From positions 414,001-478,000 of the forward strand of contig NZ_CP117835.1 in NCBI RefSeq assembly GCF_029094545.1: a stretch of DNA of 64,000 bases, given 5' to 3'. The stretch is from Alkalihalophilus pseudofirmus (GTDB taxonomy: Bacteria; Bacillota; Bacilli; Bacillales; Bacillaceae_D). The first letter of the stretch is position 1, and every line of letters starts with the position of its first letter. The translations under genes and the position numbers were made by a program. The notes under the pieces were generated by a model. That model saw nothing but the letters and a program-made list of their open reading frames with translations, made no database searches and was not told the origin of the DNA. Of this stretch, positions 22,979 to 38,781 are shown piece by piece.

Positions 22979-23395
22979 ATGAAAGAATTATTATTACGAT
23001 CACACTGCGTGTTCCCGACACCAAATATCATCAAAACAGCCAACTACTATGAGCAGAAAATGGGATTTAAAGCTGTACATTATCTGGACGCCAGTGAGCC
23101 GCATATTTGTCTGTATCGCGGCACAACAGAGATCATCTTAACGAAAACGAATGGGCAAAAGGTTATTCCGAATCGAACGCTGTATGGTTATGGGTATGAT
23201 GCCTACTTCATTACAACGAATCAAGAAATGCTGGAAAAAGAGTTCAAGCAATCCGGCGTAAAAATCGTACGGCCCTTACAAAATACCGATTATCAAAATA
23301 TAGAATTTGTTGCAGAAGACATTGATGGAAGGTGGGTAGGGTTTGGTGTAAAGGTGGATTCAGATAAAGAAAATATTGGTCTATTAGATAATTAG
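22979..23395 (+). CDS. VOC-superfamily (glyoxalase/bleomycin resistance-like) protein
   Basis: A 138-residue protein of the vicinal oxygen chelate fold: two beta-alpha-beta-beta-beta modules, the first from CVFPTPNIIKTANYYEQKMG, the second around DAYFITTNQEMLEKEFKQSG and VAEDIDGRWVGFGVK. Function and ligand unknown; bleomycin-type and glyoxalase assignments are only fold-level. The ATG at 22979 follows GAGAGGAGAAAGC; the frame from 22928 overlaps the preceding gene and is not used. It is the last gene of the operon, with a terminator at 23400. Confidence 0.82.
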   Translation: MKELLLRSHCVFPTPNIIKTANYYEQKMGFKAVHYLDASEPHICLYRGTTEIILTKTNGQKVIPNRTLYGYGYDAYFITTNQEMLEKEFKQSGVKIVRPLQNTDYQNIEFVAEDIDGRWVGFGVKVDSDKENIGLLDN

Positions 23396-23399
23396 AAGT

Positions 23400-23428
23400 A
23401 AGCTGTGATTTGACAGCTTTTCTTTTTT
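23400..23428 (+). terminator. Terminator after the VOC gene
   Basis: AAGCTGT and ACAGCTT form a 7-bp stem followed by TTCTTTTTT. The 3' half also contains the TTGACA of the next promoter. Confidence 0.75.
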
Positions 23429-23439
23429 ACTACTATAAT
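23410..23439 (+). promoter_or_regulatory. Sigma-A type promoter of the Zur-box cluster
   Basis: TTGACA (23410-23415), 18 nt, TATAAT (23434-23439). Both hexamers are perfect. The Zur-type box begins on the last base of the -10 element, so a bound repressor would cover the transcription start. Confidence 0.75.
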
Positions 23440-23453
23440 CGTAATGATTACGA
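23439..23453. promoter_or_regulatory. Zur box 1
   Basis: TCGTAATGATTACGA is an exact 7-1-7 inverted repeat, equal to the B. subtilis Zur consensus and different from Fur (TGATAAT) and PerR (TTATAAT) arms. Confidence 0.9.
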
Positions 23454-23510
23454 TTTAAAAGTAAAATTATGAATAATATATAAGAGAAAAGGATATGAAT
23501 GGTTTATAAA

Positions 23511-23525
23511 TCGTAATTATTACGT
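23511..23525. promoter_or_regulatory. Zur box 2
   Basis: TCGTAATTATTACGT has one mismatch in the last position. It lies directly before the ribosome binding site of the ferredoxin gene, 72 nt downstream of box 1, so it may act as a second operator or roadblock. Confidence 0.82.
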
Positions 23526-23542
23526 TTTGGAGGAGTGTTTTT

Positions 23543-23935
23543 ATGGCTACTTGGGACCTTAGTCAAACGAAGCACCACGTACTGTTTTGTAATGGTGGGA
23601 GCTGTAATAAATGGGGCGCTGAAGAGGTTACGCAAGCAATTAGGAATGAGATTTCAAAAAGGAATTTAGATGATCAAATCCACACAACAAGGACGCGCTG
23701 TAATGGACGTTGTGATGACCGTTGTGTAGCAGTCGTTTACCCTTCTGGTGAATGGTACAAGGGATTAAACCCAGAGGATGCGGGCACCTTCGTTAATTCA
23801 CTTGTGTTGAATCGAGATCTTACAGGGAAGGTGAGTCACACCTATACAGGAGATGGATTTATAAGAGAAGAGGGCATAGCGAAAGGAATCTCTAAAGATC
23901 CTCAAAAAGTGAAGAGAGTATCAAAACAATATTAA
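23543..23935 (+). CDS. Thioredoxin-like [2Fe-2S] ferredoxin
   Basis: A 130-residue protein of the (2Fe-2S) thioredoxin-like ferredoxin group, related to CbiW-type proteins of cobalamin operons. The cluster ligands are likely C16 and C21 (CNGGSC) with C53 and C57 (CNGRC); C61 is an additional cysteine. The segment [16 protein letters not shown] is typical of the family. The C-terminal 35 residues are polar and probably flexible. It is the first gene of the Zur-box cluster, with two Zur boxes upstream and a strong GGAGGAG binding site. It may be an electron donor or a metal-linked redox partner; the actual role is unknown. Confidence 0.85.
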
Positions 23936-23951
23936 GAAAAGAAGTGATAAG

Positions 23952-24941
23952 ATGGTTTTTGCGAAGCAGCCAAAGATTCCAGTTACCATATTAACAGGTT
24001 ACCTAGGAGCAGGGAAAACAACGTTGCTCAATCGTATCCTTACTGAAAAGCATCAGAAAAAGATAGCTGTCATTGTAAATGAATATGGAGAAGTAGGAAT
24101 TGATAATCAGCTAGTGGTGGATTCTGAAGAAGAGATAGTAGAGATGAACAATGGATGCATCTGTTGTACAGTACGGGGCGATCTAATTAAAATCTTACGA
24201 ACCTTACACTATTCAATGGAGCAAGGCCGTATGCATTTTGATCAGGTGATTATTGAAACGACCGGATTAGCTGATCCAGCACCTGTAGCGCAGACATTTT
24301 TCGTTGATGAAGTATTAAGTGATGTCTTTGAGGTAGATAGTATCATTACAGTTGTTGACAGTAAACATATTACGAAGCACTTAGATAAAAAGGATGAAGC
24401 GCAGGAACAAATTGCCTTTGCAGACGTCATTATTTTTAATAAACAAGATTTAATCAGTAAAGATGAAATAAAGAAACTCGAAGCAAGAGTTAGTCAAATG
24501 AATCCAACAGCCAAACGACTTTATGCAGAAAATTGCCAAATCCCTTTAAATGATATTTTAAATATCCATACTTTTAATGTTGATCATAAGCTGAATGTAA
24601 ACCCTCACTTTCTTGATGATCATCACCATCATCATGATGACCGCGTATCATCGATTGCCTTTACAGAAGAGAGGCCTCTTGATATGAGTAAAGTTGATCG
24701 TTGGATGAGTTACTTGGTTCAAGAAAAAGGAGAAGATTTACTTCGTTATAAAGGAATTCTTAATATCGAAGGAATGAAGGAACGAATAGTGTTTCAAGGG
24801 CTGCATATGTTGTTTACAGGCAAACCTGATAAGAAATGGAGTGAAGGGGAAAAAAGAAAAACAGAGCTCGTTTTTATTGGTCGGAACTTAGACAAAATAG
24901 AACTAGAGAATCAATTTAGAGAGTGTATTAGCAGCCGATAG
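23952..24941 (+). CDS. COG0523 GTPase (CobW/ZagA-like metallochaperone), copy 1
   Basis: A 329-residue G3E-family GTPase. Walker A is GYLGAGKTT (16-24), the metal-binding CxCC motif is GCICC (68-72), and the base-specificity motif is NKQD (163-166). A histidine stretch, DDHHHHHDD (222-230), could hold zinc. The C-terminal CobW domain runs from about 240. Zur-controlled members in Bacillus (ZagA, formerly YciC) deliver zinc to essential enzymes during starvation, and this is the natural reading here. It lies 16 nt after the ferredoxin gene. A stem-loop spans its stop codon. Confidence 0.92.
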
Positions 24942-24956
24942 GAGGCCGCTAATACA
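24924..24956 (+). other. Stem-loop across a stop codon inside the cluster
   Basis: TGTATTAGC (24924-24932) and GCTAATACA (24948-24956) form a 9-bp stem, extended by GCC/GGC after one mismatch. The stop codon of the COG0523 gene lies in the loop region. There is no T tail, so RNA processing or partial attenuation is more likely than termination. Confidence 0.6.
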
Positions 24957-25005
24957 TTGCCATTAGTATACTTGTTACATAGTTAACAGAAAAACAACCT
25001 TTAAA

Positions 25006-25020
25006 TCGTAATGATTATGA
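25006..25020. promoter_or_regulatory. Zur box 3, degenerate in one arm
   Basis: TCGTAATGATTATGA: the left arm is perfect, the right arm has one mismatch. It overlaps a Fur-like box at 25012-25026 and sits 24 nt before the methyltransferase start. Confidence 0.75.
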
Positions 25021-25026
25021 TTATCA
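25012..25026. promoter_or_regulatory. Fur-like box overlapping Zur box 3
   Basis: TGATTATGATTATCA differs from the Bacillus Fur 7-1-7 consensus TGATAAT-N-ATTATCA at one base. It shares nine bases with Zur box 3, so the two proteins would exclude each other. Confidence 0.6.
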
Positions 25027-25043
25027 TCAAAGGGGGAGGGCGT

Positions 25044-25802
25044 ATGGAAACTTGGTATAAAGAGCATTTTAATGAAGATTACTTACGAATATACAAGCAT
25101 CGCAATGACAATCTAGCTCATCAAGAATTAACTCAATTGATGAAGTTTGTTCCGGTTGTTCAAGGTCAATCTTTACTAGATTTATGTTGTGGAAACGGTA
25201 GGCACAGCAGGTGGTTTGCTAAGCAGGGCTTTCGCGTAACAGGGGTTGATCTATCACCTGTATTATTGGGAGAAGCTCGAAAGGGTGAGCACGCTGAAGA
25301 TATTCATTATGTTCGTTCTGATATGAGAGATCTCTCGTATAAGGATAATTTTGACCTGGTTGTTAATCTCTTTACGAGCTTCGGCTATTTTAAAGAGGAT
25401 GAACAAAATAAGAAAGTATTACAGAATGCTTATGATGCATTAAAGCTGAATGGGTATTTTGTTTTTGACTATCTGAATCCATCCTTCCTTGAAAATAACC
25501 TTGTTCCTTTTTCAAAGGATATCATTGATGATCTTTCTATTCTTCAGTATCGGATGATTGTTAATAATACCGTTGTTAAGAAAATCAAGGTAGAAGATAA
25601 TGGCGCATTAAGAGAGTATGAAGAACGAGTAAAATTATATGAACGAGCCACCCTGGATGTGATGTTAAAAGAAGCAGGGTTTACGATTATTCACACATTC
25701 GGGGACTATGATGGGAGCGAGTTTCAAAGTAGGGAGTCTTCTAGATTAATATATATTTGCCAAAAGAGAAGCGTTGCACCAGATAACCATGAAAACAATT
25801 GA
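25044..25802 (+). CDS. Class I SAM-dependent methyltransferase in the Zur-box cluster
   Basis: A 252-residue Rossmann methyltransferase: motif I LLDLCCGNGRHSRWFAK (44-60), then VTGVDLSPVLLGEARK; a DxxxNLFTSFGYF motif IV region at about 112. The substrate is unknown. Position between a Zur/Fur-type operator and a siderophore-type transporter suggests it modifies a metallophore or another cluster-related small molecule, but no biosynthetic genes are nearby. The ATG at 25044 follows AGGGGGAGGG; the frame upstream starts inside the operator. The permease gene overlaps its end by 14 nt. Confidence 0.85.
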   Translation: METWYKEHFNEDYLRIYKHRNDNLAHQELTQLMKFVPVVQGQSLLDLCCGNGRHSRWFAKQGFRVTGVDLSPVLLGEARKGEHAEDIHYVRSDMRDLSYKDNFDLVVNLFTSFGYFKEDEQNKKVLQNAYDALKLNGYFVFDYLNPSFLENNLVPFSKDIIDDLSILQYRMIVNNTVVKKIKVEDNGALREYEERVKLYERATLDVMLKEAGFTIIHTFGDYDGSEFQSRESSRLIYICQKRSVAPDNHENN

Positions 25803-26889
25803 GGTAACAAATCGTACGAATCACCTGCTAAAACTCGATTTCAAGTCTCCTGTTATTTTATCAGTGTCGATGTTACTAATTCTAGTCATATCTATGACTG
25901 CATCTGTGATGATAGGGGCAGTTTCTATTTCTCCTTTAACAGTATGGAAGGTCGTCTTCTCTCAACTTTCTTTCATCGAAGCCCATATGATAGCAGATTG
26001 GTCATTGGCTGAGCAGCAGATCATTTGGGAGATTCGGTTTCCACGAGTGATACTAGCAGCTGTAGTGGGGGCAGGGCTGGCTCTGGTTGGGGTTGTGATA
26101 CAGGCACTTGTTAGAAATTCATTAGCCGACCCTTTTATATTAGGAGTCTCTTCAGGCGCATCGGTTGGGGCGACACTCGTAATCATCTTTGGGGCTTTTT
26201 CGGCTTTTGGACAATGGGCTTTATCAATAGCTGCTTTTGGGGGTGCCTTACTTTCGGTACTGCTTGTTTTCCTTTTATCACAGGTACAGGGCCGAATTTC
26301 AACCGTTCGACTTTTATTAGCCGGAATTGCTGTCTCAATGATGCTTTCAGCAATTACAAGCTATATTGTCATATCTGCCCCACGGGAAGAGGGGATTAGA
26401 GATGCGATGTTTTGGATGATGGGCAGTGTGGCCGGTGCAAAGTGGTCTCAGCTGCCTATTCCAGTAGTGAGTTTCCTTTTTGCATACATAATACTCATAT
26501 TGCTTGCAAGGCCCCTTAATTTGATGCTGATGGGTGAGAGTACAGCAGCAACTTTAGGAGTAGATAGTCAACGTCTAAAAAAATGGCTCATATTAATAAC
26601 TGCACTGCTGACAGGTGTGTTGGTTTCTGTTAGTGGAGCGATTGGGTTTATAGGACTGATGGTTCCTCATATGGTTCGTTTAGTTATAGGCTCGAATCAT
26701 CGGTATGTTCTTCCGCTTAGTGCATTAACGGGTGCCGTTTTTTTGATCTGGGCTGACTTAATCGCACGAACAATCGTAGCACCGCAAGAGTTACCAATTG
26801 GCATTATAACGGCATTATGTGGTGGTCCTTTCTTTATATGGCTGCTAAGAAAAAGTACATACTCATTTGGTGGAGGTGAGGATCATTGA
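25789..26889 (+). CDS. FecCD-family ABC transporter permease
   Basis: A 366-residue permease of the iron-siderophore/cobalamin/haem type with about ten membrane helices. Recognisable: the first helix (VILSVSMLLILVISMTASVM), the motif LVRNSLADPFILGVSSGASV (about 105-124) and GAIGFIGLMVPHMVRLVIGS (about 285-304), the coupling region. It begins at ATG 25789, overlapping the end of the methyltransferase gene. The ATPase gene overlaps its stop by 4 nt. Zinc-regulated FecCD-type importers are known for zincophores (coelibactin in Streptomyces), so a metal-chelate substrate fits, but cobalamin or a siderophore cannot be excluded. Confidence 0.92.
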   Translation: MKTIEVTNRTNHLLKLDFKSPVILSVSMLLILVISMTASVMIGAVSISPLTVWKVVFSQLSFIEAHMIADWSLAEQQIIWEIRFPRVILAAVVGAGLALVGVVIQALVRNSLADPFILGVSSGASVGATLVIIFGAFSAFGQWALSIAAFGGALLSVLLVFLLSQVQGRISTVRLLLAGIAVSMMLSAITSYIVISAPREEGIRDAMFWMMGSVAGAKWSQLPIPVVSFLFAYIILILLARPLNLMLMGESTAATLGVDSQRLKKWLILITALLTGVLVSVSGAIGFIGLMVPHMVRLVIGSNHRYVLPLSALTGAVFLIWADLIARTIVAPQELPIGIITALCGGPFFIWLLRKSTYSFGGGEDH

Positions 26890-27701
26890 AATTAGTCGTG
26901 GATGAGATAGGTATGGAATTAAACAAAAAATCGCTTGTGAAGGACATTAGTTTTCATGTAAATGAAGGGGAATATGTCGGAATCATAGGACCAAACGGCA
27001 GTGGGAAATCAACACTCTTAAAAACAGTCTATCGGGTCTTGGATCCAACTTCTGGTGTGGTGATGCTTGATAATGAAATCCACACTTCTTATTCTAATAA
27101 AGATTTTGCCAGAAAAGTAGCAGTGGTAGGACAAGAGAGTTCAGTCCCTTTTGATTTTTCAGTTGAGGATATTGTTCTTATGGGAAGAAATCCACATAAA
27201 CGGTTTCTTGAACATGAAACCCATATAGATAGGGAGATTGCTAGGGAAGCACTTGAAGATGTTGGGTTGCATGGATACGGGCAGCGAAGCTTTACTACCT
27301 TATCTGGGGGTGAAAAGCAGCGCGTTATTATTGCTAGAGTGATTGCTCAACAGCCTAGCTTTTTTATTTTAGATGAACCTACCAATCATTTAGACGTACA
27401 CCACCAGCTTCATATTCTTGATGTATTAAAGCAGTCTAAGTTGACGGTGCTCACTGCATTGCATGATTTAAATCTAGCAGCCTCTTATTGTGATCGCCTC
27501 TTGGTAATGCAGGATGGTAAGTTAATAGCAAATGGATGTCCAAGCGAAATACTCACAAAGCAGTTATTAAAGGAAGTATTTCAAGTAGACGCTACGATAT
27601 GGACACACCCCATCACAAATAAAGTACAAGTTATGTATGTCTCACAAGTGATGAGGCAGGAGGCATATGAGAAGGAATTGAAAAAATGGCTTCAAAGGTA
27701 A
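26886..27701 (+). CDS. FecE/BtuD-type ABC transporter ATP-binding protein
   Basis: A 271-residue ATPase of the siderophore/cobalamin importer class. Walker A is GPNGSGKSTLL (about 37-47), signature LSGGEKQRVIIAR (about 139-151), Walker B FFILDEPTNHLD (about 157-168), switch ALHDLNLAASYCD (about 193-205). It starts at TTG 26886, overlapping the permease stop by 4 nt and preceded by GGAGGTGAGG. It partners the FecCD-type permease and the downstream binding lipoprotein. Confidence 0.93.
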   Translation: MKLVVDEIGMELNKKSLVKDISFHVNEGEYVGIIGPNGSGKSTLLKTVYRVLDPTSGVVMLDNEIHTSYSNKDFARKVAVVGQESSVPFDFSVEDIVLMGRNPHKRFLEHETHIDREIAREALEDVGLHGYGQRSFTTLSGGEKQRVIIARVIAQQPSFFILDEPTNHLDVHHQLHILDVLKQSKLTVLTALHDLNLAASYCDRLLVMQDGKLIANGCPSEILTKQLLKEVFQVDATIWTHPITNKVQVMYVSQVMRQEAYEKELKKWLQR

Positions 27702-27770
27702 GAGAATTTTAAAAGTTATCGAATTAATAAAGTCTTTGCCGAGTGATTACTTAGGAAGGCAGGAAAAGAA

Positions 27771-28739
27771 ATGAACAATATATTTATTAAAGTCATCGTA
27801 GGGTTGGTGTTAGCATTCATATTAACGGCTTGCACTGAAGCCGAAGAAGCAAATCAAGTCGGGAGTGCAAAAGAATCTTCGCAAAATGAAGTAGTTGAAA
27901 TTGAAAATGGTGATCAGATATTAACCATTTCCGAAGTGCCCGAACGTGCAATAACTTTAAATCAACATGTAATGGAAGTAATGCTAGCTCTTGGGTTAGA
28001 GGATCATATGATTGGAACGGCGTACTTAGATGATGAGGTGATGCCTGAATGGAGAAAAGCGTATGATTCTATTCCGGTATTAGCAGACCAGTACCCCTCT
28101 CAAGAAGTGTTTTTGGATGCTGAGCCGGACTTTGCTTATGCTGGTTGGAGCAGTGCTTTTAATGAAGAAGCTATTGGGTCAATTGAGCAGCTCAAGAGTT
28201 ATGGAATTAACGCTTATCTTCACCAATCCTCTACAAAAGTGGGGCCTGCACTAGAAGATATCTATATGGATATTCGCCATATTGCCAAGATATTTAATGT
28301 GGTTGAGAGGGGAGAGGATTTAATTAGTGAACTAGACAATCAGATTGAACAAATAAAAGAACAAATACCAAGTGACCAACCTAAAAAAAGAGTTTTTGTT
28401 TATGATAGCGGCGATACAGCCGCATTCACTGTAGGTCAGAACTTTTTGAACCAACTGATTACAATGGCAGGTGCGGAAAATATCTTTTCTGATTTAGATA
28501 AAAATTGGGCAGAAGTGAGCTTTGAAGAAGTCGTTCAACGTGATCCAGAAGTGATTATTATTATTGATTATGGTGAAACATCTGCTGAGCAGAAGCGTCA
28601 GCAATTAATGACCCACCCTGCACTGACTGGTGTGACAGCCATTCAAGAAGAAAATTTTATTGTTCTTCCCCTTTCTTCAGCCGCTGAAGGAGTACGAGTA
28701 GCGAAAGCTTTAGAGGTTATCGTTGAAGGGTTGTATTAA
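27771..28739 (+). CDS. Siderophore/cobalamin-type substrate-binding lipoprotein
   Basis: A 322-residue type III (FhuD/BtuF-like) binding protein. The lipoprotein signal ends with LTAC, so C21 is lipidated. Two lobes flank a long helix; family landmarks are VPERAITLNQHVMEVMLALG (first lobe), the PDFAYAGWSSAF turn, and DPEVIIIIDYGET, then LSSAAEGVRVAKALEVI in the second lobe. It lacks a histidine-rich loop of the ZnuA (cluster A-I) kind, so free zinc is unlikely to be the ligand; a chelate or corrinoid is more probable. It is the third component of the transporter, with GGAAGGCAGGAAAAG upstream of the start. Confidence 0.9.
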   Translation: MNNIFIKVIVGLVLAFILTACTEAEEANQVGSAKESSQNEVVEIENGDQILTISEVPERAITLNQHVMEVMLALGLEDHMIGTAYLDDEVMPEWRKAYDSIPVLADQYPSQEVFLDAEPDFAYAGWSSAFNEEAIGSIEQLKSYGINAYLHQSSTKVGPALEDIYMDIRHIAKIFNVVERGEDLISELDNQIEQIKEQIPSDQPKKRVFVYDSGDTAAFTVGQNFLNQLITMAGAENIFSDLDKNWAEVSFEEVVQRDPEVIIIIDYGETSAEQKRQQLMTHPALTGVTAIQEENFIVLPLSSAAEGVRVAKALEVIVEGLY

Positions 28740-28759
28740 AGGAAAACATGCATTATGCT
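28731..28759 (+). promoter_or_regulatory. Possible internal promoter before the SufU paralogue
   Basis: TTGTAT (28731-28736), 17 nt, TATGCT (28754-28759), with Zur box 4 about 10 nt downstream, at the expected start of transcription. Confidence 0.5.
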
Positions 28760-28769
28760 GTTATCTAAA

Positions 28770-28784
28770 TCGTAATTATTACGA
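28770..28784. promoter_or_regulatory. Zur box 4
   Basis: TCGTAATTATTACGA is an exact 7-1-7 inverted repeat of the Zur type. It controls the SufU paralogue and second COG0523 gene. Confidence 0.9.
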
Positions 28785-28813
28785 AATGGGAATTTGTGAA
28801 AGGTGATGATTCT

Positions 28814-29269
28814 ATGTTTCAAGACCTTTATCGTAAAGTGGTAATGGACCATGCGAAGTATCGTCGCAATACAGGGGTGCTAGACGGTGAGCAAGTAAGG
28901 AAGGTGCACTATAAAAACCCGACATGTGGCGATGTTATCACCTTGTATATAGAAACGGATGGTAATCTAGTTAAGGATGTTTCTTATGAGGGAGAAGGCT
29001 GTAGTATTAGTATGGCGTCTTCCTCGAGGATGACAGAGTTAATTAAAGGAAATAGTATTGATTCCATTTCAAAAATGAGAAATGAGTTTGAGCATTTGAT
29101 TCGAAAAGGCAAGCAACAGGATCCTGCAATAGATCTGCAGGATGCGATGTCCTTAGAAGGGGTTCATAAGCTAAGAGCAAGGCATAACTGTGCATTAATG
29201 GCTTGGCAGGCATTAGATAAGCTTTTAAAAGATGAAGAGGGATACCAGGAGATAAAAAGACAACGATGA
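28814..29269 (+). CDS. SufU-family Fe-S scaffold/sulfurtransferase paralogue
   Basis: A 151-residue member of the SufU/IscU family. The residues that bind zinc in B. subtilis SufU are all present: C38 and D40 (PTCGD), C63 (EGCSIS) and C126 (HNCALMAW), in the right order and spacing. SufU takes persulfide sulfur from SufS by a zinc-ligand swap. The normal copy lies in the sufCDSUB operon; this one stands alone behind an exact Zur box. The ATG at 28814 follows AAAGGTGAT; a GTG at 28796 overlaps that site. It is followed after 9 nt by a second COG0523 GTPase, which might supply its zinc. Confidence 0.88.
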   Translation: MFQDLYRKVVMDHAKYRRNTGVLDGEQVRKVHYKNPTCGDVITLYIETDGNLVKDVSYEGEGCSISMASSSRMTELIKGNSIDSISKMRNEFEHLIRKGKQQDPAIDLQDAMSLEGVHKLRARHNCALMAWQALDKLLKDEEGYQEIKRQR

Positions 29270-29278
29270 GGTGGTTTG

Positions 29279-30232
29279 ATGAAGAAAAAAGTAGAGGTCA
29301 TTATACTAAGCGGGTTTTTAGGTAGTGGCAAAAGTACATTACTTTCACGTCTTCTTTCATATGAAAAGAAGAGAGGGCGTAAGGTAGCTGTTCTCATGAA
29401 TGAGCTGGGTAAAGTGAGCATTGACTCTTCTGTTGTTCCTTCAGATATACCTCTAAAAGAAATGCTGAATGGCTGCATTTGCTGTTCCATTCAAGGAGAG
29501 CTAAGCGTCCAATTAAAGGAATTGACCGAAGAACACACATTAGATGTGATTTATATCGAGGCTACTGGTGCCGCTCATCCATTAGATGTACTAGATGCGT
29601 GTACTCATCCTTTACTATCAGCATCCATTCAAATACAAGCTAGCATTTCAGTTGTAAACTCAAAACAATGGTTAGAACAGAAGATGAGTAATATGATGAA
29701 GAAATTGATAACTCATCAAGTGAAATTTGCAGACATTGTGTTAATTAACAAAATTGATCAAATAACCGAAAATGAATTAACAAAGGTAAAAGCCACAATT
29801 GAGAAAGAGAATCCGTCAGCTATAAAACAAGCAGTTACCTTCTCTCAAATGGATATGAACATTCTTCATGATAGGAATAGTCAACTAGGTAAGTTAAGTG
29901 AAAAACAGCGTGACTTCAATACAGATGTTAAAAGTCTTCATTTAAAAACATGTGCGATTCCTATAGAAGGTGCGATAAATCGTATTCAATTAGAAGAATT
30001 TCTAGAAGAGAATCAAGCGCAGCTATTAAGAATGAAAGGCTTTATTAGGCTTACTGATAGTCCTGCAATATACTTATTTAATTATGCATATGGATTTCCT
30101 ATGTATGAAAGGGTGAAATCTGAGGTTCAAGTGAGTCCTGTATTAGTGTGTATTGGCGAGGAGATCATTCAAGAAGAGTTGGAAGAGAAACTCAAAGAAC
30201 GAGGGATAGTAAAGGTATCACAAATTGGTTGA
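29279..30232 (+). CDS. COG0523 GTPase, copy 2
   Basis: A 317-residue G3E GTPase. Walker A GFLGSGKST (12-20), CxCC motif GCICC (65-69), NKID (about 157-160). Unlike the copy at 23952 it has no histidine-rich linker and its sequence differs throughout, so this is not a recent duplicate. It starts at ATG 29279 behind GAGGTGG, 9 nt after the SufU paralogue, and is the last gene of the cluster. A likely task is metal delivery to a client, perhaps the adjacent SufU protein; this is inference from adjacency. Confidence 0.9.
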   Translation: MKKKVEVIILSGFLGSGKSTLLSRLLSYEKKRGRKVAVLMNELGKVSIDSSVVPSDIPLKEMLNGCICCSIQGELSVQLKELTEEHTLDVIYIEATGAAHPLDVLDACTHPLLSASIQIQASISVVNSKQWLEQKMSNMMKKLITHQVKFADIVLINKIDQITENELTKVKATIEKENPSAIKQAVTFSQMDMNILHDRNSQLGKLSEKQRDFNTDVKSLHLKTCAIPIEGAINRIQLEEFLEENQAQLLRMKGFIRLTDSPAIYLFNYAYGFPMYERVKSEVQVSPVLVCIGEEIIQEELEEKLKERGIVKVSQIG

Positions 30233-30237
30233 ATGCG

Positions 30238-30272
30238 GAGCGATTACATTTTAAAAGTAATCGCTCTTTTTT
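30238..30272 (+). terminator. Terminator closing the Zur-box cluster
   Basis: GAGCGATTAC and GTAATCGCTC form a perfect 10-bp stem with T6. Confidence 0.9.
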
Positions 30273-30297
30273 ATTTGTTGGATAAGAGTGCTTGGGT

Positions 30298-30810
30298 TTA
30301 ATATTGACCAGAGCAACTTGAAGAATATGTTCGATTTATCTTATTATCTAGAATGCGAATTAATCCTATCCCGCTTTTTACTAACCAAAAAGTCATGGTA
30401 AGAACAGAGAACGTATACAGGCTGTTCCACCCCTTATGATACTCAACTAAATTTGTATGCTGCTCAAGCCAATCTTCTAACAATGTCATCGGGCCGCTAA
30501 AAAGGAAAACGCTCAAAATAGATAAGAGCGGCTTCATTTTATAGGTGAATTGGTTATAGATCACACATGATAACGGGAATAAGATATATAAAAATACAAT
30601 GTTAGAATCAAATAATTTTGGGAAATAACGATTTGGGTACTTTACATATTTTCTCTTGATAACAGGGCCATCGATTAAAGTAGAAACAAGCGTCTTAATA
30701 AAGAAAATAAGAAACCAGTCCTTGGAATCGCCTTTTCTTCTTAATAAAACAAAAATAGTTGTCCCTAGACCAAGCAGGGTTAGTATATTTAATATATGTC
30801 GATCTTTCAT
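30298..30810 (-). CDS. CBO0543-family membrane protein
   Basis: A 170-residue integral membrane protein with about five helices. The family landmarks are visible: the region KYPNRYFPKLFDSNIVFLYI (about 57-76), FPLSCVIYNQFTY and SGPMTLLEDWLEQHTNLVEY (about 105-124), then GWNSLYTF. CBO0543 proteins are common in Bacillus and clostridia and have no known function. It is transcribed divergently from the gene at 30942 and converges on the Zur-cluster terminator. Confidence 0.82.
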   Translation of the reverse strand: MKDRHILNILTLLGLGTTIFVLLRRKGDSKDWFLIFFIKTLVSTLIDGPVIKRKYVKYPNRYFPKLFDSNIVFLYILFPLSCVIYNQFTYKMKPLLSILSVFLFSGPMTLLEDWLEQHTNLVEYHKGWNSLYTFSVLTMTFWLVKSGIGLIRILDNKINRTYSSSCSGQY

Positions 30811-36142: not shown

Positions 36143-36173
36143 AAAGCCGCCTTTATAAATAAAGGCGGCTTTT
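36143..36173 (+). terminator. Terminator after selO
   Basis: AAAGCCGCCTTT and AAAGGCGGCTTT, a perfect 12-bp stem, with a short T tail. The following gap to 36393 has no gene. Confidence 0.88.
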
Positions 36174-36393
36174 GTGCGTATTGCGGCGAGAGACAGCACT
36201 CCACATAGTGCCTTGCCTAAAAGGCGCGTCAATCTCGTCTTATGCAAATTAGCTCATCGCTAGAACAGTATATCATCAATGTGACTGATAATGGAAGGTA
36301 AATATTTTACTCTGTATGTTTATTTTTGTCATTGTACATCCTCTTCTCTTCATAATCTGAAAAAGTGTAAATAATCGGAGGAGGGTGGATCAG

Positions 36394-37725: not shown

Positions 37726-38781
37726 ATGGCTCAGCAAAATTTATCAACGCTCAAAAAAAGCATTGCACCATTTGAAAAATCTGATACGAAATCAAGTGTG
37801 AGACAATTATTGAATACGGTTCCACCGTTCTTTCTATTGTGGTTTTTAGCCTATCAAAGCCTTTCTGTATCGGTTTGGCTGACCTTTGCCTTTGCTGTTG
37901 TCGCAGCAGGGTTTGTTGTGCGCATCTTTATTATTTTTCATGATTGTTGTCACGGATCATTTTTTAAAAACAAAAAGTTAAATAACATAGTTGGTACGAT
38001 TACCGGAATTATTACGATGTTTCCATATGAAAAATGGAAGCGCGAGCATTCAATCCACCATGCAACAAGCAGTAACTTAGATAAGCGCGGCACAGGTGAT
38101 GTATGGATTATGACGGTTGATGAATATGTCTCAGCATCGTTTAAGGAGAGACTTCAATACAGACTTTACCGCAACCCGCTTGTGATGTTTGGTCTTGGAC
38201 CGCTTTATCTGTTCCTAATTACGAATCGAATGAACCGCAAGGACGCTAGAAAAAAAGAGAGAATGAATACACATGTAACGAATATTTCAGTTGTTGTGAT
38301 TTATTCGCTTATCATTTGGTTAATTGGCTGGCAGGCATTTTTGCTTGTGCAGGCACCAATTTTATTCGTTTCAGGTTCATTAGGCATTTGGTTATTTTAT
38401 GTCCAGCATCAATTTGAAGATTCCTACTTTGAAGATGAAGGTGACTGGGATTATGTGAAGGCAGCAATTGACGGCAGCTCGTATTATAAGCTTCCAAGAG
38501 TACTCCAGTGGGTAACCGGGAATATCGGGTATCACCATGTCCATCACTTAAGCCCAAGAGTACCGAATTACAACTTAGAAAAAGTACATGAGTCAACACC
38601 GCCGTTGCAACAGGCAACGACGATTACAGTAGGCTCAAGCTTGCAGTCCATTCGTTTTCGTTTGTATGACCAACAAAGAAAAACATTTGTAAGCTTCAAG
38701 GAAGTAGCTCATCTTTTATCAAAGCCTCGTGGCAATGTTGAGCTTAAGAAAGACTCGACAAAGCTTTCACGTGCAAAATAA
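37726..38781 (+). CDS. des: Acyl-lipid delta-5-type fatty acid desaturase
   Basis: Membrane di-iron desaturase that introduces a double bond into phospholipid acyl chains after cold shock. 351 residues, nearly the length of B. subtilis Des. The three histidine boxes are H72DCCH76, H108SIHH112 and H270HVHH274; four to six membrane helices surround them. The start follows AAGGGGG. The kinase and regulator genes for the DesK-DesR pathway follow on the same strand after a terminator, as in B. subtilis, so control by membrane fluidity is expected. Confidence 0.95.
   Translation: MAQQNLSTLKKSIAPFEKSDTKSSVRQLLNTVPPFFLLWFLAYQSLSVSVWLTFAFAVVAAGFVVRIFIIFHDCCHGSFFKNKKLNNIVGTITGIITMFPYEKWKREHSIHHATSSNLDKRGTGDVWIMTVDEYVSASFKERLQYRLYRNPLVMFGLGPLYLFLITNRMNRKDARKKERMNTHVTNISVVVIYSLIIWLIGWQAFLLVQAPILFVSGSLGIWLFYVQHQFEDSYFEDEGDWDYVKAAIDGSSYYKLPRVLQWVTGNIGYHHVHHLSPRVPNYNLEKVHESTPPLQQATTITVGSSLQSIRFRLYDQQRKTFVSFKEVAHLLSKPRGNVELKKDSTKLSRAK

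Follow-up and report, generated by a model that had tools for sequence, protein, structure and literature searches.

What function unites, behind one type of operator, a paralogue of the sulphurtransferase SufU, a FecCD-type importer, two COG0523 GTPases, a methyltransferase and a small ferredoxin? The question is raised by eight genes, all of them intact open reading frames (ORFs), in a 64,000-nucleotide stretch of Alkalihalophilus pseudofirmus (contig NZ_CP117835.1, positions 414,001 to 478,000), referred to here in its full length as the window. An earlier, sequence-only reading had proposed the import of a zinc chelate or corrinoid combined with zinc-safe Fe-S assembly during zinc starvation. 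Our results suggest, with a probability that we would put at roughly 0.6, that these genes constitute an accessory, Zur-controlled zinc-starvation island that would keep the sulphur transfer for Fe-S assembly running.

Zur-type operators and the genes behind them

The eight genes form three compact units (fdx-gtp1, mt-fecCD-abc-sbp and sufU2-gtp2), and Pfam assigns their products to the ferredoxin, methyltransferase, FecCD, ABC ATPase, Peripla_BP_2, NifU_N and (twice) cobW families. Four boxes of the form TCGTAAT-N-ATTACGA, which we take to be the Bacillus subtilis Zur consensus, precede these units: box 1 (23439..23453, no mismatch) and box 2 (23511..23525, one mismatch), the latter just upstream of fdx; box 3 (25006..25020, one mismatch) upstream of mt-fecCD-abc-sbp; and box 4 (28770..28784, no mismatch) upstream of sufU2. 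They end 90, 18, 24 and 30 positions, respectively, before the start codon that follows. All four had been reported from the letters alone, with the added remark that no others were seen in the window, and both statements stand: no further site with at most one mismatch exists in the 64 kb, the next-best site (at 38003) having two. A chance origin is ruled out by shuffling of the window, in which four sites were observed at up to one mismatch and five at up to two, compared with means of 0.0 and 0.3 in 40 dinucleotide shuffles. Box 1 is overlapped by the -10 element of a sigma-A-type promoter match (TTGACA-18-TATAAT, 23410..23439, + strand), the only 12-of-12 match in a region with 22 promoter-like sites versus 21.2 in shuffles.

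Perfect sites number two in the 4.24-Mb genome, both inside the cluster, and sites with at most one mismatch number nine, four of them in the cluster. The other five lie before or between rpsN2, two long COG0523 genes, a NikA-type importer and a flavoprotein gene. Specifically, 1-mismatch boxes accompany the gene for a 399-amino-acid COG0523 GTPase, followed by a dCTP deaminase gene (dcd), the divergent genes for a 401-amino-acid COG0523 GTPase and the flavoprotein (two boxes), and rpsN2, which encodes a zinc-free paralogue of S14; znuA is preceded by a pair of 2-mismatch boxes. A Fur-family gene adjoining ABC-3 zinc-type permease and ATPase genes is a candidate for Zur itself. Because the other 1-mismatch sites of the genome precede rpsN2, long COG0523, NikA-type importer and flavoprotein genes, the cluster boxes are very probably Zur boxes, and the Zur-type control suggested by the sequence-only reading thus finds support both in the boxes and in the zinc-starvation genes that share their operator elsewhere in the genome. 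FecCD/Peripla_BP_2 transporters are usually importers of iron-siderophores or B12, and this transporter class speaks for an alternative in which Fur or PerR recognises the boxes and the island belongs to iron or siderophore metabolism. We consider that alternative highly improbable and reject it on regulon content: zinc-starvation genes follow the other close box matches of this genome, and rpsN2, folE2, znuA and Fur-family genes occur in islands elsewhere.

Two of the other loci with Zur-type boxes have features of their own. At 1916-1920 kb (L030, 3561-7047), boxes stand before a long COG0523 gene with the dCTP deaminase gene and before a NikA-type five-gene importer; the deaminase might provide a bypass of the zinc-dependent dCMP deaminase. 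At 3035 kb (L031, 5491-7992), the gene for a FAD/NAD(P) oxidoreductase diverges from a long COG0523 gene, each with its own Zur-type box.

The eight genes are one accessory block (23359..30332). In one genome of the same species (G009) and one of the same genus (G008), the two flanks, ending at 23358 and starting at 30333 in the window, are separated by 160 bp and the cluster is absent from between them. Another genome of the genus (G010) has the complete set of eight genes in unchanged order, at a different place that is far from that of the downstream flank; the corresponding units are again preceded by boxes (1, 1, 1 and 2 mismatches). Conservation of the boxes with the cluster genes in relatives, on which the Zur assignment had been made to depend, is borne out by this genome and by the sufU2 and importer loci of other genomes described below. 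The only direct repeat found at the island ends was an 11-bp A+T-rich match, and a Pfam scan of the block proteins, made with no dedicated integrase search, revealed no integrase-type family.

A SufU clade linked to zinc-starvation genes

SufU2 (28814..29269, + strand) belongs to the Pfam family NifU_N, scores 164 bits against a cut-off of 92.5 in the SufU model TIGR01994 and has B. subtilis SufU (5xt5) as its nearest solved relative. Among 397 genomes of the order, 29 had a match (E <= 1e-37), and 28 of these, from 11 families, encode SufU2; the remaining match (G164) was removed, its locus being the housekeeping suf operon. Housekeeping SufU was then sought in 31 genomes (27 of the 28 SufU2 genomes, three more with sufU2, and G164) and was present beside SufU2 in all 30 SufU2 genomes, G164 having the housekeeping form only. 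In a tree with long branches, the rooting and inner order of which are unsure, SufU2 (57 rows) and housekeeping SufU (75 rows) are separated with 100/100 support by a single change; the SufU2 stem has a length of 2.76, and identity to the housekeeping SufU of this genome is 35-48%.

The two clades also differ in genomic context. Of 31 sufU2 loci, 26 have a box with at most two mismatches no further than 1.5 kb from the start, compared with none of 31 housekeeping loci and 0.2 in shuffles; for this count, as for the motif alignment, over-long SufU ORFs were cut back at the N-terminus to the start of the reference. A second set, which shares genomes with the first and is not independent of it, comprised 80 named loci out of 589 confirmed places, 69 of which were classed as SufU2 (25) or housekeeping (44); of the 11 left out, ten had no called SufU ORF and one (L243) did not satisfy the motif rule, although the tree places it in the SufU2 clade. 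Among these named loci, a box with at most one mismatch lies within about 20 kb of 20 SufU2 loci and of no housekeeping locus, and at least one of the genes sought by BLAST, drawn from the zinc-starvation and island set, accompanies 21 SufU2 loci and, again, no housekeeping locus. The neighbours, most of which were named by BLAST against the genes of this genome and a subset by family scan, include gtp1 (14 of 25 SufU2 loci), gtp2 (11), fdx (11), dcd (10), the two types of long COG0523 gene (9 and 4), rpsN2 (8), folE2 (6) and znuA (4). The oxidoreductase with its own Zur-type box at 3035 kb recurs in 4 of the 25.

Carriers among the named loci include Evansella, Halalkalibacter, Alkalihalobacillus, Halobacillus, Gracilibacillus, Peribacillus and Metabacillus, as well as Alkalihalobacterium, Ectobacillus, Sutcliffiella, Paenibacillus, Bacillus swezeyi and B. 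nakamurai, and the finding reaches well beyond this genome. The island of Paenibacillus alkaliterrae (L239) combines ZnuABC-like, Fur-family, two COG0523, SufU2, MoaB-like, FecCD importer and FolE2 genes, and Cytobacillus oceanisediminis (L234, which stands outside the counts, its sufU2 ORF being only partly called) has rpsN2, FolE2, dcd, gtp2, fdx, gtp1, sufU2 and the importer within 10 kb. The genus names of many carriers (Halalkalibacter, Alkalihalobacillus, Evansella, Halobacillus) point to alkaliphiles or halophiles, and free zinc may be scarce in such habitats.

SufU2 shares with the SufU proteins of B. subtilis (5xt5) and Mycobacterium tuberculosis (PMC10216065) the membership in TIGR01994, the four zinc ligands and the arginine: all 57 SufU2 rows have Cys38, Asp40 and Cys63, and 56 of them have Cys126 and Arg123, the remaining row being truncated. 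It differs from them in forming a separate clade, in standing in a Zur island instead of a suf operon, and in fixed differences that cluster round the metal ligands, namely Tyr33-Lys34 in place of Met-Asn (57 of 57 rows) and, just before the last ligand, His124 in place of Ile (52 of 56, otherwise Tyr) and Asn125 in place of Lys (54 of 56). Since all four ligands are kept, SufU2 should hold metal, and a ligand-free, zinc-free stand-in of the RpsN2/FolE2 kind is ruled out; the 'zinc-safe' Fe-S assembly of the sequence-only reading accordingly fails as worded on the retention of Cys38, Asp40, Cys63 and Cys126.

The second gene of the SufU2 unit, gtp2 (29279..30232, + strand), encodes a COG0523 GTPase with a CICC motif (Pfam cobW). 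The GTPase encoded by gtp1 (23952..24941, + strand; 329 amino acids, Pfam cobW) has a CICC motif and a His-rich loop, and had been described as ZagA-like, a label that fits instead the two long COG0523 proteins of this genome: these are 64% alike, bear their own boxes and are only 31-33% identical to gtp1, which rules out gtp1 as ZagA. In addition, gtp1 scores 212 bits against a cut-off of 600 in the ZigA model, and its best NCBIfam match, below the cut-off, is PRK11537, presumably a YjiA-type model. Next to gtp2 in two relatives stand genes of a different kind, a zinc-binding deoxycytidylate deaminase gene (PF00383; L136, 14255), directly beside gtp2 and behind a 2-mismatch box, and a 157-amino-acid gene in the same place, also behind a 2-mismatch box (L137, 3049); both products are possible clients of the GTPase.

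SufU is essential in Bacillus and, because it is zinc-dependent as well, would be a weak point in zinc starvation. The M. tuberculosis enzyme needs Zn, removal of which leaves 10% activity; Co(II) restores 50%, and Fe, Ni, Mn and Cu restore none (PMC10216065). When zinc is plentiful, Zur would occupy the four operators and silence fdx-gtp1, mt-fecCD-abc-sbp and sufU2-gtp2; as zinc falls, the three units would switch on. SufU2 would then act as a zinc-starvation isoform of the zinc-dependent sulphurtransferase, taking over persulphide transfer from SufS once housekeeping SufU cannot obtain metal, and gtp2 and gtp1 would most likely load metal into SufU2 or other priority clients. From the retained site we infer that SufU2 could sustain sulphur transfer by a tighter hold on zinc, by loading through gtp2 or by acceptance of cobalt.

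SufU2 might conversely feed a special client, such as the island ferredoxin, tRNA thiolation or a MoaB-like protein, rather than replace SufU. This is an unlikely alternative in our view: the high divergence of SufU2 (stem length and identity to housekeeping SufU given above) and the presence of a MoaB-like gene in 4 of the 25 named SufU2 loci (family confirmed for L071 and L076) are compatible with it, but no client gene is constant, COG0523 and zinc-starvation genes are the commonest neighbours, and Arg123 and all SufU ligands are kept. Within Zur islands, the MoaB-like gene, related to molybdenum cofactor, is located close to either sufU2 or a COG0523 gene (L071, 6344; L073, 11777; L076, 7144; L239, 10447).

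An importer found at zinc-starvation and cobalamin loci

The importer consists of a FecCD-type permease (25789..26889), an ABC ATPase (26886..27701) and a substrate-binding lipoprotein of the Peripla_BP_2 family (SBP, encoded by sbp, 27771..28739), all on the + strand and assigned with Pfam. Permease (PF01032, 333 bits) and SBP (PF01497, 88 bits) exceed the cut-offs of these broad classes. By contrast, scores stay below the cut-offs of the B12 importer models (BtuC 281 versus 461 and 262 versus 334, BtuF 70 versus 234 and BtuD 126 versus 281 bits) and of the putative F420-0 importer models TIGR03868/69/73 (192 versus 392, 315 versus 437 and 258 versus 372 bits). The best solved relatives of the SBP are 4n01, 4mlz and 4ljs, listed as 'periplasmic binding protein', with BtuF weaker, and its conserved residues (H66, W126, W246, Y267 and R309) do not decide between a corrinoid and a metal chelate.

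Genomic context links the importer to cobalt and cobalamin genes. The SBP (E <= 1e-55) occurs in at least 25 of the 397 genomes, a lower bound given that at most five candidates per genome were scored. CbiD is encoded in 21 of these 25 genomes versus 64 of the 372 others (Fisher 6e-12, kinship ignored), and 16 genomes place the SBP no more than 20 kb from CbiD. Within that distance, CbiD is accompanied by CbiM in 2 of these 16 genomes versus 37 of 69 other CbiD genomes (P = 0.004, kinship ignored; 15 weak CbiM rows with E above 1e-9 left out). A second copy of the importer closes a cobalamin operon in the same genome (2.80-2.82 Mb; SBP 58-60%, permease 71% and ATPase 55% identical), and an RNA-family scan covering three importer loci (L068, L084 and L205) revealed two tandem cobalamin riboswitches at the head of this operon (L068), two more between a 2-mismatch box and fecCD at L084, and none at L205, the operon head of which is outside the locus. 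Cluster and cobalamin operon share the importer (55-71%), a paralogous fdx (46%) and a methyltransferase gene, but the operon has its tandem riboswitches at the head and no box with up to two mismatches within 450 bp of the importer, and the cluster has instead Zur boxes, COG0523 genes and SufU2.

The two settings overlap elsewhere. In 11 of 27 importer loci, the 450 bp preceding the importer unit contain a box with at most one mismatch, and at L205 a perfect box stands between fecCD on one side and corrin methylase, phosphoribosyltransferase and CbiA-type genes on the other; L206-L211 resemble L205 in order and length, with SBPs within 20 kb of CbiD. In the SBP tree, island and cbi-operon proteins interleave (5 label changes, with 135 of 500 shuffles as low), which rules out a separate zinc-specialised clade of island importers and suggests a shared type of substrate for both settings. 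As the relatives sit at cobalamin operons and avoid CbiM there, the importer points to cobalt or a cobalt/zinc chelate as the substrate that would fit both settings best, a corrinoid being possible. The proposal of zinc chelate or corrinoid import is thereby borne out in part, in that CbiD, CbiM and riboswitch context tie the importer to cobalt and corrinoid biology.

Within the zinc-starvation island, the importer would bring in a metal chelate, most likely a cobalt or cobalt/zinc complex, that serves zinc starvation and cobalamin synthesis alike, with possible roles for the methyltransferase and ferredoxin in processing or reducing the imported complex. The ferredoxin gene fdx (23543..23935, + strand) encodes a thioredoxin-like [2Fe-2S] protein that narrowly passes PF01257 (25.4 versus 24.8) and stays below the NCBIfam ferredoxin models; its 46% paralogue, the small ferredoxin heading the cobalamin operon of this genome, is presumably CbiW. 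The product of mt (25044..25802, + strand) is a class I S-adenosylmethionine (SAM)-dependent methyltransferase by Pfam, and the importer is accompanied by genes for class I methyltransferases of varying make at L074, L080 and L205 (by family scan) and at L201 and others (by BLAST); that the enzyme processes the imported chelate is a guess. Methyltransferases with an N-terminal rubredoxin-like domain occur between the ATPase and SBP genes at L074 (5570) and L205 (9150), as scanned, and at L201 (10153), by reading.

Two rival models bear on the substrate. Under the first, the island would substitute cobalt for zinc: the importer would take up cobalt or its chelate, the GTPases would hand over Co(II), and SufU2 would be tuned to Co(II). 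In its favour are the co-occurrence of the SBP with CbiD and its avoidance of CbiM at the cbi locus, the importer orthologue behind tandem cobalamin riboswitches and the interleaving of island and cbi-operon SBPs. Conversely, the CbiD and CbiM counts ignore phylogeny, and G010 has the importer without CbiD. The best model for gtp1, PRK11537, presumably of the YjiA type, would side with zinc, although gtp1 stays below its cut-off. Co(II) brings M. tuberculosis SufU back to 50% activity, and Fe, Ni, Mn and Cu have no such effect (PMC10216065); zinc-starved Cupriavidus metallidurans swaps some zinc for cobalt with the involvement of COG0523 proteins (PMC11340326); among COG0523 relatives, YeiR and YjiA prefer Zn(II), and CobW takes Co(II) (PMC7895991). 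We regard cobalt substitution as possible yet on the unlikely side, and its fully specified form, Zur-controlled cobalt replacement through an importer of the cobalamin-operon type, COG0523 handover and a SufU2 remodelled at His124-Asn125 for Co(II), as rather unlikely.

Under the second model, Zur would tie B12 supply to zinc starvation through BtuFCD-like uptake of cobalamin or cobinamide. BtuC and BtuF models and BtuF structures are among the sequence relatives of the importer, cobalamin riboswitches are part of its context, and predicted importers of iron or cobalamin are raised 1.5- to 4-fold in zinc-starved Paracoccus (PMC5387054). We consider such corrinoid salvage doubtful: the BtuC, BtuF and BtuD cut-offs are not reached, the proximity of the SBP to the biosynthetic cbiD in 16 genomes would make import of the product less needed than that of cobalt, and a different BtuFCD-like set (27-45% identical) is present in the relatives L073 and L076.

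Weight of the evidence and described Zur regulons

Several observations weigh against a zinc-starvation island built around SufU2 and the importer. The retention of the zinc site leaves the benefit of SufU2 under zinc shortage unproved. A related genome (G024) keeps fdx, gtp1, mt, sufU2 and gtp2 with a shortened ATPase, and neither permease nor SBP was found there; the importer is therefore not needed by the remaining genes, and no box lies within 1.5 kb of sufU2 in this genome. The link between SufU2 and the importer is loose, because the SBP was found at 1 of the 25 named SufU2 loci at the BLAST thresholds used. No box with up to one mismatch lies upstream in 16 of the 27 importer loci. Four of the 25 SufU2 loci have neither a sought gene nor a box with at most one mismatch, one of them being a 3.5-kb contig. 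At up to two mismatches, boxes lie within about 20 kb of 23 of the 25 SufU2 loci but also of 4 of the 44 housekeeping loci, and 2-mismatch sites mean little by themselves, since the 32 genomic sites at this threshold barely exceed the 26 found with the pattern read backwards as a control.

The sequence-only reading knew of no described system with this content. That holds for the combination but not for its parts, as far as the available text of the cited papers goes: Zur control of COG0523 genes, importers and stand-in proteins is known (PMC5007448, PMC6103462, PMC6336718, PMC5387054), and a Zur-controlled putative ferredoxin (SCO7676; PMC6103462) and a Zur-controlled class I SAM methyltransferase (MSMEG_6055; PMC7174638) are in print. 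The same limit applies to the comparisons that follow. The Zur regulon of B. subtilis (zinT, rpmEB, rpmGC, znuACB, yciC/zagA, rpsNB and folEB) follows the same principle of combining import with metallochaperones and zinc-independent stand-ins, but its named operons are without a SufU paralogue, ferredoxin, methyltransferase or FecCD importer, and the term 'SufU' does not occur in the paper (PMC5007448). In B. anthracis, electrophoretic mobility shift assays revealed two Zur-bound COG0523 genes and a permease gene, in a regulon of 11 genes described without the terms NifU, FecCD, ferredoxin or methyltransferase (PMC6336718). The Mycobacterium smegmatis region MSMEG_6045-6071 likewise places importers, CobW proteins, alternative ribosomal proteins and a SAM methyltransferase under Zur, but with another box and other importers, and no SufU paralogue was seen there (PMC7174638). 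Paracoccus denitrificans pden1338-1344 combines a COG0523 gene and an importer under Zur motifs and resembles the locus at 1916-1920 kb of this genome (L030), but the importer is of the nickel/dipeptide type, and neither a SufU paralogue nor a FecCD importer was seen (PMC5387054).

No paper on Zur-controlled SufU, or on SufU protection in zinc starvation, was found among the matches listed from the openly licensed literature, and we found no description of a SufU isoform or an importer of the cobalamin-operon type as members of a Zur island. The Zur-linked SufU clade of 11 families offers a testable answer to the question of SufU protection and could represent a new client in the prioritisation of zinc, and the importer, by tying zinc starvation to cobalt and cobalamin genes, makes the cobalt-for-zinc question directly testable in Gram-positive bacteria.

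The cluster is closed by a terminator-like stem (GCGATTAC/GTAATCGC) with a T run (30239..30272, + strand), read directly and outside the loop limit of 8 of the terminator scan. Elsewhere in the window, the - strand at 36146-36260 encodes a BsrF small RNA (Rfam RF01411, 80.5 bits).

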